Assembly (NCBI GenBank): GCA_021734045.1
Contig: JAIPJR010000008.1
Coordinates: forward strand, 1 to 45,968
Source: Fidelibacterota bacterium
Lineage (GTDB): Bacteria > Fidelibacterota > UBA8477
Length of the DNA stretch: 45,968 bases
Direction of reading: 5' to 3'
This document shows positions 32,465 through 42,828 of the stretch, piece by piece. The first letter of the stretch is position 1; each line of letters opens with the position of its first letter. The notes beneath the pieces are model-generated. The model was not told where the DNA came from. It saw only the letters and a list, made by a program, of their open reading frames with translations, and made no database searches. The translations under genes were made by a program, and so were the position numbers.

Positions 32465-35347
32465 TTAACCGTTTCCCGCTGATTGATGACTTGCCAGCCA
32501 CTTCACAACACCCCCAATCAAATCTTCTTTGGTGCGTGCCGCCACATGTGGGATGGGTGTGGAATTAATGAAATAACTCCCGTACCGCTTGGTGAATAAG
32601 CGGTCATCCAGGGAAATCACAGCGCCGTAATCTGACATGGTCCGGATTAGGCGTCCAATCCCCTGCTTGTACTTAATCGCCGCCTCGGGCACAGCATATT
32701 CCATAAAATCATTCCCGGAATTCATACGAATGTCATCCTGATTAGCACGGACGATGGGTTCGGAGGGTACCTGGAAGGGCAGTTTGGCAACGACCAGTAG
32801 TTGCAGCGCATCCCCGGGGATATCAATACCCTGCCAAAAACTGTCCGTAGCCAGCAGAACACTCCCCGGCTCATTTTTAAATGTGTTGATTAAATGAACT
32901 CGCGAAACCTGATTATTCTGCACCAGCAATTTGCGATTGGAGTGTTTGAAAATGGGCGTGAGTGCTCCTTCCCATTCCAGCAACTGAGAATAGGAGGTAA
33001 ATAAAATCAAGGTTCCGACGGGATGCGCTTGCCAAATCTCTTCCAGAGCGCTTATGACGCGTTCCGTATAGTTTGGATCTTTCGTGTAACCCAGAAATAG
33101 CGGCACAAAAGCCCGGGCCTGATCCTCATAAGAAAAAGGTGATGGATACAATCGGGTAACAACACGGTCATTCTCCAATAGTCCCGTTCGCTTCATGTAA
33201 TACTCGAAACTGTCATTCACAGCCAGCGTTGCTGAGGTAAACACAGCCGAGCTTAAATCTTCATACAATGCCGTTTGCAAAACATTCCCCACCCGAAGCG
33301 GTACCTGAATAAACCGGACATTGATGTCATCTTCCCGCGGACTCATTTCGAACCAATATATCATCCCCGCCTCGTTGGCCGCAGCTTGCGAGTCCATAAT
33401 GGCGAAGGTATTTTGTAATTCCTCACGGAACCCATCGAGCCGTAATAAATACTCCTCCAAGTCCACGACACCATCCGTATGGATGTCATCCAGTTGTCGA
33501 CGCAATGTCTCAAGTAATTTTTGCAGATTTCCAAGGGCGACGATTAATTCCTGCCAGGGATTAGCCACAGGTGCAAACAGCTCTTTCTCAGCCGTGTAAA
33601 GCTCTTTGTACATGAATTTGGAATGTTGAAGCTTGACCAGATGCTGCTGGCGGAATTCCTGAAAGAATGACTCGCTGGCATTTGAAGCCTCCTGGGTGGC
33701 ATTCTGAATGTCTTCCACCTGTTGCAGAACATCTGTTTTCTCCTCCTCCTTCAGCGGAACAAGATAATGAAGCAAATCCACCGATAGTCCTGTCATGCGC
33801 CGTGCTCGGTAGTACATGCGATCCAGTAAATTCCTCAAGCTGTAGTACGAAAATTCCGAGGCGAAAAATTGGTAGGCATTTTTCTCCAACAAATGCCCTT
33901 CATCCACCACCAGCCGCTCATATCGGGGAAGAATGCTATGCCCCGCCGCCGCGTCAGAGAGCAGCAATGAATGATTCACCACAATCACATCTGCTCCGTG
34001 GGTCTCACGACGAATTTTTCCTAGAAAACAGTGCTCAAACGGCTGACAAACGGCGGTTGTACAAAATCCTGGTTCGCTGCACAGTTTACTCCATAGATAA
34101 CTAGCCCGGCCGGTGCTGAAGCCATTGTGCTCATCAATATCACCGGTTCGTGTTTCCCGCAACCACAACACCAGCGTTTGCATCTCCTCCTTTTCACGGT
34201 CAGACAGGAACCAGTCTAAATCGCGCATAGCCCGCGTCCACTTATTCTTACAGATGTAGTTGGAACGACCTTTTAGCAAAATCGCCTTCATCCCAATCCC
34301 CAACTTCTCCTGTATGAAAGGGATTTCTTTGTGGAAAAGTTGATCCTGTAAATTTTTTGTGTTACAACTGATGATGAGTGGTGCCTCTTCCTCCAATCGA
34401 TAACGGGTCAGAACGCTGGGAACCGTGTAGGCCAGACTTTTTCCCACTCCCGTTCCGGATTCAGCGACAAGAAACTCATTGTTAGTCATTATCTGCTCGA
34501 TGTCTCGCGCCATATCAGACTGGGCGGGCCGTGGTTCATAACCGGACAATTGCGCAGCCAGCGAACCATTTTTTTCGAAAATATCTGCTAACTCAGGCAG
34601 CTCCTCTTTTCTTTGAATGTCCCTGATATTTGGTGGTGAAGGTATGGGTTCGGGTGTAAATCCATGGGGCATCACCATTTTCTTACCGCTTCGCAGGTGA
34701 TTTAAGATATTTATAAATAATAGTTTGTTAGGCATTTCAACACTGCGGTGAATCTCCACCAAATTCTGAAAGACTTCCTGGTCACCGCGCGCCATTTCAC
34801 CGATGAATTTCAAAAGCAATTCACCCGTTAATTCGGCATCATAATCTGCCCGGTGGGTCCCCTCGGCACTCAAACCGTAGTATTCCGCAATATCACCTAA
34901 TCGGTGATTCACTAAATCGTAGCGAAAAGTCCGGGAAAGGTAGAGCGTATCCAAGAGTGGGTTTTCCAGGTCTTTGCCATCGTATTCTGACCGTTTCTGC
35001 TGTAGAAATCCGTAATCAAACATCACATTGTGACCCACGAGAGGAAAATCACCCAGGAAGGCGAATATCTGCTCCATAACGGCTTCCAATTCGGGTGCCT
35101 CTGCGACCATTTCGTCGGTGATGGTTGTGATTTTTGTAATGAAGGGTGGGATGGGAATCGGTGGCTTGATAAATTGCTGCATGCGCTCAGCGATTTTTCC
35201 ATCCACCACCTTAACAGCTCCAAATTCAATGATAAAATCGTTTACCGGGTCAAGACCGGTCGTCTCCAGATCAAAAGCCACATAGGTTTTCAAGCCGATA
35301 CTGGCCAGGTATTTGGAAAATTCCAAGGCAACACTTTCTTTTTTCAA
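32465..35347 (-). CDS. dinG: DnaQ-like exonuclease fused to DinG-family helicase
   Basis: 960 aa. An N-terminal DEDD 3'-5' exonuclease domain (FDLETTGL at ~25, HNVMFDYGF at ~105, HRADYDAEL at ~165) is joined to a superfamily 2 XPD/DinG-like helicase with Walker A ESGTGVGKS (~295) and DEGH (~480). Cysteines between them (YICKN, LCSEPGFC, AVC, EHC) probably bind an iron-sulfur cluster. This arrangement is that of the Firmicutes DinG proteins. The start is uncertain: TTG 35347 gives the expected N-terminus but has no clear ribosome site. Probably a DNA-repair enzyme. It follows the GGR-like gene by 29 bases. Confidence 0.92.
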   Translation of the reverse strand: MKKESVALEFSKYLASIGLKTYVAFDLETTGLDPVNDFIIEFGAVKVVDGKIAERMQQFIKPPIPIPPFITKITTITDEMVAEAPELEAVMEQIFAFLGDFPLVGHNVMFDYGFLQQKRSEYDGKDLENPLLDTLYLSRTFRYDLVNHRLGDIAEYYGLSAEGTHRADYDAELTGELLLKFIGEMARGDQEVFQNLVEIHRSVEMPNKLLFINILNHLRSGKKMVMPHGFTPEPIPSPPNIRDIQRKEELPELADIFEKNGSLAAQLSGYEPRPAQSDMARDIEQIMTNNEFLVAESGTGVGKSLAYTVPSVLTRYRLEEEAPLIISCNTKNLQDQLFHKEIPFIQEKLGIGMKAILLKGRSNYICKNKWTRAMRDLDWFLSDREKEEMQTLVLWLRETRTGDIDEHNGFSTGRASYLWSKLCSEPGFCTTAVCQPFEHCFLGKIRRETHGADVIVVNHSLLLSDAAAGHSILPRYERLVVDEGHLLEKNAYQFFASEFSYYSLRNLLDRMYYRARRMTGLSVDLLHYLVPLKEEEKTDVLQQVEDIQNATQEASNASESFFQEFRQQHLVKLQHSKFMYKELYTAEKELFAPVANPWQELIVALGNLQKLLETLRRQLDDIHTDGVVDLEEYLLRLDGFREELQNTFAIMDSQAAANEAGMIYWFEMSPREDDINVRFIQVPLRVGNVLQTALYEDLSSAVFTSATLAVNDSFEYYMKRTGLLENDRVVTRLYPSPFSYEDQARAFVPLFLGYTKDPNYTERVISALEEIWQAHPVGTLILFTSYSQLLEWEGALTPIFKHSNRKLLVQNNQVSRVHLINTFKNEPGSVLLATDSFWQGIDIPGDALQLLVVAKLPFQVPSEPIVRANQDDIRMNSGNDFMEYAVPEAAIKYKQGIGRLIRTMSDYGAVISLDDRLFTKRYGSYFINSTPIPHVAARTKEDLIGGVVKWLASHQSAGNG

Positions 35348-35376: not shown

Positions 35377-36549
35377 TTAGAACCCGGCGAATGCTTTGGC
35401 AACATCAATGAGGATACCCGGCCGTTTTTTCGCTGCCGTGCTAAATATTTTCAGCAATGACCGTTTTTCCTGGGGGACTTTGGTCAATTTGGCTGCAATA
35501 TCATCCAAATCCGAATCGGAGAGAGAATCCACCGCATCAGCGATGCGATACAGACGGGCGTGATCATCACCGCCGGCTTTATTCCATCGTTTCACATAAC
35601 GGTCGAAGAATTTTTCGGTGTAATCCCCCGCTTCCACCGCTTCTGCTGCGGTCATCCCGGCCAGCTTACCACCGTGCATACCGCTGATGATGCCCCCGCC
35701 GGTCATGGGATTCACCATCCGGGCCGCGTCACCTGTAAGCATGATACCGTCAGCGGTATATTTTTTCACTGTCTTGGCTACCGGCACGCCCCCGCAAATC
35801 ATGGTTAGCGTGGAAGCGTTGGGAAATTCTTTCGCCATAAACCGGTTAAGTAAATCAATAGCCTTGTAATGCTTTGCTTCCGTTCCCACCACACCAAGAC
35901 CGATATTGGCTTTGCCATTACCCTTCGGGAAAACCCACAAATAACCACCGGGGGCATAAGTGTGTCCTACATAAAAATCGATTCGCTCCGGATCCACATC
36001 CACATTGGCAACACTAAATTGCACGCATGATTCGGTATCGCGCAATTTCAGCGCAGTCCTTAAACCAGCCCAACGCCCCACCCGGGATTCTACACCATCT
36101 GCACCGATGACGATTTTCGCCGAGAGGGTACGCTTTTCTCCCAGGTAATCATATTCCACCCCGGTAACCCGTCCGTCGTCAAAGCGTAATCCGGTCACGT
36201 AGGCTTTGGTCAGGATCTGGGCGCCTGCCTGAGCGGCTTTGTTTGCAATATCATAATCGAAAATCCGCCGGTGCAGCACATAGCCCAAAGCCTGTCCGGC
36301 CGTATCAATGACGGTCCCATTGGGTGAAACCATCCGAATTTTGGAAATCGTAGCTGCGATCCAGTTGGGTTCGGGTTCCACGAACTGGCGCAGGCCTGCA
36401 TCACTCACCGCCTCACCACACCGCACCGGATACCCGATATCCCGGTCTTTCTCAAGAATAATCGTCCGGGCACCACCTTTAGCTGCGTACCAGGCAGCCA
36501 TTGAGCCGGCAGGGCCGCCACCCACTACGACAACATCAAATTCAGTCAC
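35377..36549 (-). CDS. Geranylgeranyl-reductase-family FAD oxidoreductase
   Basis: 390 aa. The N-terminal FAD fold VVVVGGGPAGSMAAWYAA (~6), the family motif DIGYPVRCGEAV (~40), GADGVESRVGRWAG (~148) and LTGDAARMVNPMTGGGI (~270) place it in the GGR family, which saturates isoprenoid chains in archaeal lipids, chlorophyll and some menaquinones. The start is GTG 36549 with GGAGGT upstream, overlapping the ferredoxin gene by eight bases, so the two are coupled and the ferredoxin is the likely electron donor. The isoprenoid substrate (quinone side chain or lipid) is unknown. Confidence 0.85.
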   Translation of the reverse strand: MTEFDVVVVGGGPAGSMAAWYAAKGGARTIILEKDRDIGYPVRCGEAVSDAGLRQFVEPEPNWIAATISKIRMVSPNGTVIDTAGQALGYVLHRRIFDYDIANKAAQAGAQILTKAYVTGLRFDDGRVTGVEYDYLGEKRTLSAKIVIGADGVESRVGRWAGLRTALKLRDTESCVQFSVANVDVDPERIDFYVGHTYAPGGYLWVFPKGNGKANIGLGVVGTEAKHYKAIDLLNRFMAKEFPNASTLTMICGGVPVAKTVKKYTADGIMLTGDAARMVNPMTGGGIISGMHGGKLAGMTAAEAVEAGDYTEKFFDRYVKRWNKAGGDDHARLYRIADAVDSLSDSDLDDIAAKLTKVPQEKRSLLKIFSTAAKKRPGILIDVAKAFAGF

Positions 36550-36745
36550 TCGCGACCTCCTCTTCTTCCGGATTCACCCGGCTTTCCAGGACATCGATGG
36601 GACAGACCCAAACGCAGATATCGCAATCGATACAAGTTTCGTGAATAATTTTCAGATCGGCTTCAGCCATTTCAATGGCATCTACAGGACAGACGGCCAC
36701 ACAGGTGCCGCAAAAATCACACTTATTTTCCTTTATATGAATCAT
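36542..36745 (-). CDS. Small 2x[4Fe-4S] ferredoxin
   Basis: 67 aa with two CxxCxxCxxxCP clusters: Cys 9, 12, 15 and 19, and Cys 38, 41, 44 and 48, each last Cys followed by Pro. Each binds a [4Fe-4S] centre. An acidic tail (NPEEEEVASD) follows. It is first in the operon that continues with the GGR-like reductase, overlapping it by eight bases, and so probably donates electrons to it. In methanogens a ferredoxin encoded beside GGR has been reported to serve as its partner. Confidence 0.93.
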   Translation of the reverse strand: MIHIKENKCDFCGTCVAVCPVDAIEMAEADLKIIHETCIDCDICVWVCPIDVLESRVNPEEEEVASD

Positions 36746-36898: not shown

Positions 36899-38287
36899 CT
36901 ACCAGCTCAAAAGCCTGTCAATATTGATGAAACCCACCCGCTGGAGAACTATGATGAAAACCGCTACAGGCGCAACAAAACGGATCAGGAAGAGCCAGTA
37001 TTTGTACCCTTTTCCAAAAGAAGTTCCGGTAAGGAATTCACTCTCCCGCACCCGGCTATCCATGAACCAGCCGGTAAAAATTGCAATCAATAATCCACCA
37101 ATCGGTAAAAGCCAGTTTGAAGCCAGATAATCCACCGTATCAAAGAAATTGATGCCGTAAATCACTTCCCAATTTTTGAATATGGTTCCGGACCCTGACA
37201 GCGCACTGGGAATACCGATTATGAAAATGACGCCACCCATAATCAGAACCGCCCTCCTCCGGCCCCAGCCCAGCAAATCGATGAAATTAGCGGCGACCAC
37301 CTCCAGTAAAGACATACCGGATGTGAGCGCGGCGAATACAACCAGCAGGAAGAAAATGATGGAAAGAATCATTCCGCCGGGAATTTGTGAGAAGATGATG
37401 GGCAGTGTTTTGAACAGCAGCCCGGGACCCGCTTGCGGTTCATATCCGAATGTGAAGATAATGGGGAACAATACCAGCGTCGCAATGATGGCCACTGCCG
37501 TATCCAGTACGGCAATAATGACTGAGGTCTTTACCAAATCTTCTTTCCTACTCAGGTAAGAACCGTACGTGATAATCGCACCCATGCCCAGACTCAGGGT
37601 AAAGAAGGCGTGTCCCAATGCTTCCAAAACGCCGGAAGGTTTGAGTTTTGATACATCCGGATAGAAGAGAAACCTGAAGCTGCGGCCAAAACCGTCCAGC
37701 GTCATGGCGTAGAAAAACAGCACCACCAGAATGCCCAGTAACACCGGCATTAATATCCGGCTCCAGCGCTCGATTCCGCCTTTGATACCACCATAAACTA
37801 CACCAATCGTGAGTAACATGAAGATGGCGTGCCAAAACATGTTGATATCCCCGGAAGTATAGAGCACATCAAATGTGCGGCTGATTTCATCCGGTGACAG
37901 GGCATCAAAGAAATGACTGACGGACATGAGCGTATAATTAAGTGCCCAACCAGCCACCACGCTATAATACGACAAGATGATTAAACCGGAGAAAACACCA
38001 ATCCAACCCACAAATTTCCAATTGGTCTTACGGCTGCTGCTAAGTTTATCAAATGCCACGACGGGACTACTCTGTGTCGCCCGGCCTATCATCACCTCTG
38101 CCAGGAAAACCGGAATGCCCACCAGTGCAATACAAAACAGGTAGATGAGGACGAAAATACCCCCGCCATTTTCACCCGTGATGTATGGGAATTTCCATAA
38201 ATTACCCAATCCAACGGCTGACCCTGCAGCTGCCAGAATAAACCCTAATTTAGACCCCCATTGCTCGCGTATTTGACTAACGGCCAC
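36899..38287 (-). CDS. Sodium:neurotransmitter symporter (NSS/SLC6) family transporter
   Basis: 462 aa with eleven or twelve membrane helices. The first helix has the NSS signature REQWGSKLGFILAAAGSAVG and LGNLWKFPYITGENGGG, which contribute to the sodium and substrate sites; GYEPQAGPGLLFKTLP and LTSGMSLLEV are also typical. Bacterial members (LeuT, MhsT, TnaT) carry hydrophobic amino acids with sodium. The start is GTG 38287, overlapping the DUF5683 gene by 11 bases, with AGGA upstream. It ends a four-gene minus-strand group. Confidence 0.9.
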   Translation of the reverse strand: MAVSQIREQWGSKLGFILAAAGSAVGLGNLWKFPYITGENGGGIFVLIYLFCIALVGIPVFLAEVMIGRATQSSPVVAFDKLSSSRKTNWKFVGWIGVFSGLIILSYYSVVAGWALNYTLMSVSHFFDALSPDEISRTFDVLYTSGDINMFWHAIFMLLTIGVVYGGIKGGIERWSRILMPVLLGILVVLFFYAMTLDGFGRSFRFLFYPDVSKLKPSGVLEALGHAFFTLSLGMGAIITYGSYLSRKEDLVKTSVIIAVLDTAVAIIATLVLFPIIFTFGYEPQAGPGLLFKTLPIIFSQIPGGMILSIIFFLLVVFAALTSGMSLLEVVAANFIDLLGWGRRRAVLIMGGVIFIIGIPSALSGSGTIFKNWEVIYGINFFDTVDYLASNWLLPIGGLLIAIFTGWFMDSRVRESEFLTGTSFGKGYKYWLFLIRFVAPVAVFIIVLQRVGFINIDRLLSW

Positions 38288-41388: not shown

Positions 41389-42828
41389 TCACCAGCGAAC
41401 GGTTAATTGACGATTGGCGCGGGTCTCATCTACCCTTCCAACCGGTGTTGTTTTGGGTGACTCATGGAGAATGTCCGGGTTGGTACGGATTTCTTCATCA
41501 ATCTTCACCATCACCTCCACAAAACGATCCAGCGTCTCCCGAGTCTCACTCTCTGTAGGCTCAATCATGAGCGCTTCCTTCACGATGAGAGGAAAATACA
41601 TGGTTGGCGCGTGAAATCCGTAATCCAAGAGCCGTTTGGCGATATCCAGAGCTTTCACCCCGGCGGCTTTTTGGTCAATCGCCGAAAGCACAAATTCATG
41701 CATGCAGGGCAAATCGTATGGAAGCTGGTAATAATCCTTCAAGCGATGCATGAGGTAATTGGCATTAATGACTGCAGCTTTGGAAATATCAGTCAGGTTA
41801 TCACGACCCAGCATCCGGATATAGGTCCAGGCACGGACAAGCACACCGTAATTGCCAAAGAAGGCGTGCAGCCGGCCGATACTATCCGGATGATTGTTGT
41901 TAATGATGAAATGCCCATCCACTTCATCAATCGTTGGCGTCGGGAGAAATTCCACCAGACGCGCGACCACACCAATGGGACCGGCTCCCGGACCACCACC
42001 ACCATGCGGCGTTGAAAAGGTTTTGTGTAGATTGATATGGGTAATGTCGAAGCCCATGTCAGCCGGACGTACAATGCCAATCAAGGCATTCATATTGGCG
42101 CCATCCATATACATGAGCCCGTCCACATCATGAATTAATTCCACGATTTCCAGAATGCGTTCTTCGAACAAGCCCAGTGTATTGGGATTGGTGAGCATGA
42201 GACCGGCAACTTCATCATCCAATTTGGATTTGAGATCCTCAATATCCACCAGCCCACGTGAATTGCTTTTAATTTCAACTGCCTCATAACCCGCCATGGC
42301 GACCGATGCCGGATTGGTGCCGTGGGCGGCATCCGGAATGAGAATTTTCGTTTTCCGGTTGCCTTTCATGGCGTGGTACTTGCGCATGATTAGGACGCCG
42401 GTGAGTTCGCCCTGTGATCCTGCTGCCGGCTGGAGCGTAAAGCGTTCCATTCCCGTAATCCCACACAGGAATTTTTCTAACTCATAGTAAATCTGCAGTT
42501 GCGCCTGGGACATCTCCTCCGGTTGCAAGGGGTGAGCTTCAGCCGTGATGGGCTGGCCGGCAGTCCAGTCATTAATCTTGGGATTGTACTTCATGGTGCA
42601 GGATCCCAATGGGTACAAATCCTTGTCAACATGATGATTTTTTACAGATAAATTGGTGTAGTGCCGTACCAATTCCGGTTCGGAAACTTCCGGGAGGCGA
42701 ACCGAGTCCCAGGTTCTTTGGAAGTTACCCAGAATCAAGTCATCCAGTGGTTGCTCCGGAACATCGCATTTGGGCAACGATGTGGCCATTTGCCCCCTGG
42801 CGCCACGCTCGATGATTAATTTTGTCAT
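41389..42828 (-). CDS. gcvPB: Glycine dehydrogenase (decarboxylating), subunit 2
   Basis: 479 aa. Half of the P-protein of the glycine cleavage system in organisms with a split P-protein. PLP-binding Lys lies in HINLHKTFSTPHGGGGPG (~265). LGSCTMKYNPKIND (~77), QPAAGSQGELTG (~138), and DAAHGTNPASVAMAGY are conserved. The start overlaps the end of alaS as ATGA, so translation is coupled. The partner subunit 1 and proteins T, H and L are not in the window. Confidence 0.95.
   Translation of the reverse strand: MTKLIIERGARGQMATSLPKCDVPEQPLDDLILGNFQRTWDSVRLPEVSEPELVRHYTNLSVKNHHVDKDLYPLGSCTMKYNPKINDWTAGQPITAEAHPLQPEEMSQAQLQIYYELEKFLCGITGMERFTLQPAAGSQGELTGVLIMRKYHAMKGNRKTKILIPDAAHGTNPASVAMAGYEAVEIKSNSRGLVDIEDLKSKLDDEVAGLMLTNPNTLGLFEERILEIVELIHDVDGLMYMDGANMNALIGIVRPADMGFDITHINLHKTFSTPHGGGGPGAGPIGVVARLVEFLPTPTIDEVDGHFIINNNHPDSIGRLHAFFGNYGVLVRAWTYIRMLGRDNLTDISKAAVINANYLMHRLKDYYQLPYDLPCMHEFVLSAIDQKAAGVKALDIAKRLLDYGFHAPTMYFPLIVKEALMIEPTESETRETLDRFVEVMVKIDEEIRTNPDILHESPKTTPVGRVDETRANRQLTVRW

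Follow-up and report, generated by a model that had tools for sequence, protein, structure and literature searches.

The window, a stretch of 45,968 nucleotides corresponding to contig C61 of a 2.54 Mb bacterial genome of the phylum Neomarinimicrobiota, or Fidelibacterota (92% complete, 119 contigs, listed contamination 0.04%), carries on its minus strand a small ferredoxin gene followed by a gene for a reductase of the geranylgeranyl reductase (GGR) family, the pair being flanked by a symporter gene and a helicase gene (Table 1). The eight-base overlap of the two genes described in the first-pass annotation is borne out by the open reading frames and by the sequence itself. A GGAGG site ends 6 bases before the GTG start of the reductase, and the two genes are presumably translationally coupled. 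The ferredoxin bears two CxxCxxCxxxC motifs and scores 53.5 bits with Fer4. Between the end of the symporter gene and the ferredoxin lie 153 bases, and the helicase gene starts 29 bases downstream of the reductase. A scan for promoters and terminators (3 found against 1.9 expected, and 4 against 1.8) was uninformative. The reductase is 93% identical to that of a Candidatus Neomarinimicrobiota MAG.

Table 1. Genes and motifs at the ferredoxin–GGR locus (positions in the window)
Feature	Position	Strand	Description and basis
GGR, archaeal type	35377..36549	-	390 aa, GTG start; ORF, PF22578, TIGR02032, NF041160, PDB 3oz2
2[4Fe-4S] ferredoxin	36542..36745	-	67 aa, ATG start, directly upstream of and overlapping GGR; ORF, Fer4
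Overlap of ferredoxin end and GGR start	36542..36549	-	8 bases, GTGACTGA; read from ORFs and sequence
Cys44 codon of GGR	36418..36420	-	aligns with active-site Cys of Sulfolobus GGR; alignment
PxxYxWxFP motif of GGR	35926..35952	-	residues 200-208 (PGGYLWVFP); alignment
GGG motif of GGR	35692..35700	-	residues 284-286, reported for archaeal GGRs; alignment
First 4Fe-4S motif of ferredoxin	36689..36721	-	residues 9-19; translation
Second 4Fe-4S motif of ferredoxin	36602..36634	-	residues 38-48; translation
Exonuclease-helicase protein	32465..35347	-	syntenic neighbour downstream of GGR; PF00929 and PF13307; context, outside the mechanism
SNF-type sodium symporter	36899..38287	-	syntenic neighbour upstream of ferredoxin; PF00209, 187 bits; context

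The reductase had been read as a GGR of archaeal style, and both parts of that reading held. It passes the cut-offs of the GGR catalytic-domain model (PF22578, GGR_cat; 95.6 bits, cut-off 27) and of the GGR superfamily model (TIGR02032; 240.3 bits, cut-off 158.8), and the window protein itself contains the motifs defined for the family (PMC10821996; PMC6309074). Among the finer models it scores best with NF041160, the Thermoplasmatales digeranylgeranylglycerophospholipid reductase. Since it falls under every narrow DGGGPL reductase equivalog cut-off (271.6 bits against 780 for NF041160, 171.9 against 580 for NF041080, and 85.5 against 700 for NF041385), it is not filed under any of the three; with the MenJ model NF045655 it reaches 71.5 bits, the cut-off being 700. 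Its best solved match is the Thermoplasma acidophilum GGR (3oz2; residues 2-380, E 1.4e-73), and its predicted model (pLDDT 90.6) aligns with 3oz2 at a TM of 0.90. Cys44, the counterpart of the active-site Cys47 in the Sulfolobus GGR, occupies a position that is cysteine in all 86 ferredoxin-linked rows, in all 24 rows of a diverged set of GGR homologues (GGR2), and in every other row compared. The five fixed positions of PxxYxWxFP are identical throughout the 86 ferredoxin-linked rows; the longer YxWxFPx7-8GxG motif is found in the window GGR and in 80 of the 86. The GGG motif after residue 220 is more selective: it occurs in 84/86 ferredoxin-linked rows and 7/7 archaeal rows, and in none of the 24 GGR2, two BchP, or single MenJ-type rows.

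Phylogeny places the protein accordingly. Thirty-seven bacterial ferredoxin-linked and five euryarchaeal GGRs form one branch of a 64-row tree with support of 99/98, and a 45-row tree agrees (SH-aLRT 99), so that the reductase groups with euryarchaeal GGRs instead of an unrelated oxidoreductase clade. Outside the branch fall BchP and, on long branches in the 64-row tree, the MenJ-type protein and the GGRs of Sulfolobus and haloarchaea; archaeal rows in these trees are few, and several outgroup rows sit on long branches. The clade of bacterial ferredoxin-linked GGRs receives support of just 41/10 in the 64-row tree and 74 in the 45-row tree, which is why no claim is made for that clade or for a direction of transfer. 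BchP/ChlP and MenJ share the superfamily (TIGR02032 in the case of MenJ), and two plasmid records of the BchP/ChlP type have a UbiA-family ChlG two genes upstream; BchP/ChlP differ in their separate branch, in the missing GGG, and in the stretches shown, where no ferredoxin is annotated. By HMM, fold, motifs, and tree, the reductase is archaeal-type.

The linkage to a ferredoxin extends far beyond the window. Flanks of up to 8 kb around 85 GGR matches were scanned together with the window and locus L013, eight fragmentary GGR matches being left out of the locus counts. All 87 bacterial loci scanned in this way have, on the strand of the GGR and no more than 700 bases upstream of it, a two-motif ferredoxin ORF, and their reductases are called ferredoxin-linked GGRs (Fd-GGRs) here; L013 and L046 are the same contig, which leaves 86 distinct loci in 83 genomes. 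The same scan found no such ORF at any of 680 control genes (150 aa or longer, in the same loci, with starts 900 bases or more away from that of the GGR) or upstream of any of the 24 GGR2. Given these counts, the ferredoxin is not placed there by chance. It overlaps the aligned GGR start or lies at most 13 bases from it in all but one of the 86 loci, the exception being 517 bases away; the offset of eight bases seen in the window is that of 39 of the 86. The surroundings are equally persistent, with the helicase (family 1) at +1 in 79/86 loci and the symporter (family 3) in 66/86; most other neighbouring genes were labelled by eye. A locus syntenic through the phylum in this manner implies that the Fd-GGR unit is old in Neomarinimicrobiota. 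It is not peculiar to the window organism and is common in the phylum; G020, a genome of the same genus (89% complete), has no GGR match.

This distribution also bears on whether the genes are archaeal contamination of the MAG. The protein is archaeal in type, its genome is an assembly of 119 contigs, and its nearest named relative is likewise a MAG, all of which could prompt such a suspicion. Against it stand the constancy of the neighbours through the phylum, the recurrence of the pair in a single-contig genome (G017), and the contamination listed for the window genome; we regard contamination as extremely improbable. What the locus holds is thus a genuine pair of archaeal type with a long history in the phylum.

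The GGR2 proteins merit separate description. At 15 loci of f22, g33, and g18 (L139, L142, L145-L150, L152-L154, L159-L162), a GGR2 without ferredoxin fills the Fd-GGR slot, beside a divergent UbiA-family protein designated UbiA5. These proteins are 29-34% identical, lack the GGG motif, and are ambiguous between archaeal and MenJ models. Their position could reflect either a replacement of the Fd-GGR or divergence after loss of the ferredoxin.

A dedicated ferredoxin partner had been proposed from the precedent of methanogens, and the 86 bacterial loci are joined in this respect by two methanogen records, Methanocorpusculum petauri and a Methanocalculaceae MAG (L014, L015), in which the order is ferredoxin-GGR-GGR. 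Their GGRs are 38-39% identical to the window protein and likewise follow a ferredoxin; they differ in forming a tandem of two and in their archaeal host. Another counterpart is the Methanosarcina acetivorans GGR, which according to a review needs the ferredoxin of its own locus as its in vivo reducer (PMC10821996). The likeness, drawn from that review, is the ferredoxin gene at the GGR locus; the difference is the host, here a bacterium in which the activity is predicted. The T. acidophilum GGR (Ta0516), for its part, matches over nearly its full length and has the same motifs, and a 4Fe-4S protein has been reported at its locus (PMC10821996). It is 37% identical in the structural alignment, and reportedly uses NADH or NADP(H) in vitro (PMC10821996). 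As this is the closest characterised relative, the ferredoxin need not be the donor in the window organism. A ferredoxin-GGR unit is thus of a kind already known; what seems new is its spread in the phylum, its linkage to the ferredoxin, and the likelihood that a cultured species carries it. A literature search found no such unit described in Neomarinimicrobiota, which is weak evidence for its being new, as the search covered titles and abstract openings and subscription journals were mostly outside its reach.

What might such a reductase act on? Genes for prenyl lipids and for quinones, whose absence would have undercut any isoprenoid role, are both represented in the genome. The GGGPS, on contig C24, matches PF01884 (2.2e-42) and passes TIGR01769 (207.6 bits, cut-off 161.55), with 4jej as its best solved match. 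On contig C20 lies a DGGGPS-like UbiA protein that scores 203 bits with two models whose cut-offs, 269 and 296, are both above that score, and that matches the solved DGGGPS 6m31 over residues 3-274 (E 6.1e-37). Five DGGGPS-like proteins of the phylum (G004, G016, G074, G022, G017) behave similarly, their best models being PRK12882 or PRK12884 with scores of 199-223 bits, in every case under the cut-off. GGGPS, DGGGPS-like gene, and GGR thus occupy three separate contigs. The genome also encodes MenA, MenB, and MenC together; with diether and menaquinone genes both on hand, gene presence alone does not decide the substrate. The GGGPS gene follows a glycine cleavage P-protein gene (L001:85-1428, contig C24), and the window has a glycine dehydrogenase-type gene of its own (41389-42828), the GGGPS being on the other contig. 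Elsewhere in the genome a second GGR-like flavoprotein (L006:1333-2460), below the TIGR02032 cut-off, sits directly after a gene of the cyclopropane-fatty-acid synthase family (CMAS); as a guess, it may reduce a modified fatty acyl chain.

One expected component, G1P dehydrogenase (PF13685), has no match in this 92%-complete genome, where an assembly gap is possible. Over the phylum PF13685 is too broad for counting the enzyme. Two of the five strongest PF13685 proteins were classified, and for both the closest model is one of G1P dehydrogenase (177.5 and 177.8 bits against a cut-off of 413); another, weaker match was classified as a glycerol dehydrogenase. The former two, L209:646-2046 and L212:1465-2835, are 457-467 aa long and come from two genomes; three further genomes have PF13685 scores similar to theirs.

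This inventory has a parallel in Cloacimonetes, whose GGGPS and DGGGPS made an unsaturated archaeol lipid in Escherichia coli, whose MAGs were noted to contain euryarchaea-like GGRs, and which lack G1PDH, the authors arguing for another source of G1P (PMC7852524). Both cases present an FCB bacterium with GGGPS, a DGGGPS (here a DGGGPS-like protein), a euryarchaea-like GGR, and no G1PDH found. They differ in phylum and in that GGGPS and DGGGPS are co-localised in Cloacimonetes; in the main text of that report, the word ferredoxin occurs solely in the reference list (PMC7852524). More broadly, GGGPS and DGGGPS were recorded in all 12 FCB phyla examined in one survey, whose table includes Candidatus Marinimicrobia (PMC6431249). 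The archaeal-ether-lipid context in which the first-pass annotation placed GGR homologues of FCB bacteria is supported.

On this basis, a pathway can be sketched. GGGPS would attach one geranylgeranyl chain to glycerol phosphate and the DGGGPS-like UbiA protein another, after which the GGR would reduce the double bonds of the chains with electrons from the co-encoded ferredoxin, such that the cell would make saturated or partly saturated archaeol-like lipids beside its ordinary bacterial ones. Both the electron flow from ferredoxin to GGR and the substrate are suggested by the gene pair, the family, its conservation, and the partner genes. We consider it probable, though well short of certain, that the pair is a ferredoxin-driven GGR hydrogenating the geranylgeranyl chains of archaeal-type diether lipids; in such a role it may set membrane isoprenoid saturation, as first suggested.

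The chief evidence on substrate comes from the distribution of partner genes across the phylum. The sample, an even draw of 149 genomes, contains 85 at 90% completeness or above, which were used with no contamination filter (84 remain with one); a single GGGPS row, judged to be spurious (G024, E 6.6e-5), was removed. Counting these 85 genomes as independent, all 48 with an Fd-GGR also have DGGGPS, whereas the 37 without it are divided into 23 with DGGGPS and 14 without. For GGGPS the corresponding figures are 45 with and 3 without when Fd-GGR is present, and 22 and 15 when it is absent. Of the 14 genomes in which DGGGPS is absent, eight are of genus g8 and six of g28, and none of them has GGGPS. 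At the seven such loci seen (four of g28 and three of g8), neither ferredoxin nor GGR is left, whereas UbiA5 is kept; the symporter is kept in all but one, where the contig ends, and the helicase in g28 only. Adding GGR2 to the Fd-GGRs gives a seemingly stronger association with DGGGPS (66/0 with any GGR, 5/14 without), a pooling that was dropped since GGR2 has no ferredoxin, no GGG, and ambiguous models; the main claim uses Fd-GGRs alone.

The first-pass annotation had held saturation of the menaquinone side chain, a role like that of MenJ or of the Archaeoglobus prenyl reductase, to be equally possible, and it is this part of its reading that has weakened. There is family precedent, as MenJ and a menaquinone-specific reductase of Archaeoglobus are GGR-family enzymes (PMC10821996), and besides the MenA, MenB, and MenC of the window genome, a MenA-like protein lies 2-3 genes downstream of the GGR in 11 of the 86 bacterial loci (e.g., L119:3706-5082). 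That downstream family is about 460 aa long with an N-terminal PNPOx-like part, the one member scanned scoring 20.2 bits, below cut-off. On the other side, the 71.5 bits of the GGR with the MenJ model compare with 271.6 for the Thermoplasmatales model, and a Nonomuraea protein of the MenJ type, whose own 256.7 bits fall short of the cut-off, is placed on a long branch in another part of the tree. Nor does Fd-GGR show any association with MenA-like genes (38 with and 10 without when present, 29 and 8 when absent; p=1; 85 genomes counted as independent), MenA-like being defined by a single-protein search at E <= 1e-10 that takes in distant UbiA proteins and could miss a divergent quinone prenyltransferase. 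Genomes of g6, g25, g14, g22, and g17 keep the Fd-GGR with no MenA-like and no MqnA/D match, and in an inventory of PF01040 proteins in 24 genomes these genera carry only the DGGGPS-like protein and UbiA5 (the latter missing in G055 and in g17). Conversely, lineages with MenA-like genes that lack GGGPS and DGGGPS are missing the pair. A menaquinone substrate is, all told, improbable; the co-occurrence, together with the retention of the pair where no quinone prenyltransferase is recognisable, favours DGGGPS-made diethers over menaquinone.

A third candidate is another prenyl substrate, be it free GGPP, a polyprenol, or the product of UbiA5. GGRs are promiscuous, several reducing GGPP or geranylgeraniol in vitro (PMC6309074), and a myxobacterial homologue reduces sterols (PMC12004948). 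In 50 of the 86 bacterial loci the gene next upstream of the ferredoxin is that of UbiA5 (e.g., L103:7148-8113, L060:9354-10298, L067:6789-7820), and genus g17 has the GGR with neither GGGPS nor MenA-like genes. Specifically, among the ten g17 genomes (G022, G027, G039, G047, G059, G063, G070, G078, G082, G086), GGGPS is found in none, a DGGGPS-like protein in eight, and Fd-GGR in seven (one GGR being a fragment); of eight checked for UbiA proteins, seven have the DGGGPS-like one only and G059 none. With DGGGPS-like protein and Fd-GGR but no GGGPS, the substrate in g17 must differ. On the other side, UbiA5 was not found in the window genome, it is kept at loci without Fd-GGR (g28, f7), 18 of the 50 UbiA5 do not have the N[DNQ]xxDxxxD pattern, and Fd-GGR goes with DGGGPS. 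Since UbiA5 and Fd-GGR are each kept alone, neither needs the other, and UbiA5 was dropped as a required partner. Some UbiA5 are cut to about 263 aa, yet UbiA5 as a family is kept at loci without ferredoxin and GGR; a truncated structure model of UbiA5 (pLDDT 78.3) matched no PDB entry at E <= 0.001. We judge another prenyl substrate unlikely, albeit deserving of more weight than menaquinone.

Shared ancestry tempers the genome counts behind the diether reading. A tree-corrected pairs test, which covered 91 genomes and used a tree of the SNF symporter gene alone, yielded, for any GGR, 3 usable pairs, of which on average 2.5 changed in the same direction with GGGPS, 1.5 with DGGGPS, and 1.5 with menaquinone genes, none significantly; the menaquinone genes thus match DGGGPS here, a point in their favour. 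For Fd-GGR alone there were six pairs, with DGGGPS in the same direction in 1.3. The fewest changes on the symporter tree number 4 for any GGR, 6 for DGGGPS, and 15 for menaquinone genes. The co-loss rests on two or three lineages, and so on few independent events.

The joint absence has a further implication. The survey of FCB phyla also put forward the possibility that the two enzymes work in reverse in such bacteria and degrade archaeal lipids (PMC6431249). A reductase lost along with them makes a backward, degrading pathway less likely, and the spread of Fd-GGR together with its joint absence with GGGPS and DGGGPS suggests that the pathway is used and not vestigial.

A cultured member of the phylum probably carries the whole set. 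Genome G017, a single contig of 2,788,509 bases with 45.4% G+C over three sampled pieces of it, has the pair, GGGPS, and DGGGPS, and probably is that of Fidelibacter multiformis IA91, for which a genome of 2.79 Mbp and 45.6% G+C was published (PMC11652737). The published lipid work on IA91 consisted of fatty acid methyl esters, and the main text of that report has no occurrence of "quinone", "isopren", or "archaeol" (PMC11652737); ether lipids would therefore have gone unseen. These methyl esters of one species were the only lipid data found for the phylum.

The Cloacimonetes case for archaeal-type diether lipids in living bacteria is built on MAGs, an assay of the enzyme, and heterologous expression in E. 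coli, and isolation and lipid analysis are called for in that report (PMC7852524). For Neomarinimicrobiota, a broader scenario is conceivable to which we would give slightly less than an even chance, namely that in most of the phylum saturated archaeol-type lipids, made with an Fd-GGR unit of deep ancestry there, form part of a mixed membrane, and that the streamlined f7/g8 lineage, with genomes of about 1 Mb, and g28 dropped GGGPS, DGGGPS, and the unit together. The f7/g8 lineage we take, as a guess, to be the open-ocean SAR406. The diether pathway would be completed by a reductase that has a fixed ferredoxin partner, and the idea can be tested by lipid analysis of the cultured species. If it is true, and if the cultured carrier is confirmed, a living bacterium that can be isolated could be shown to bridge the lipid divide.
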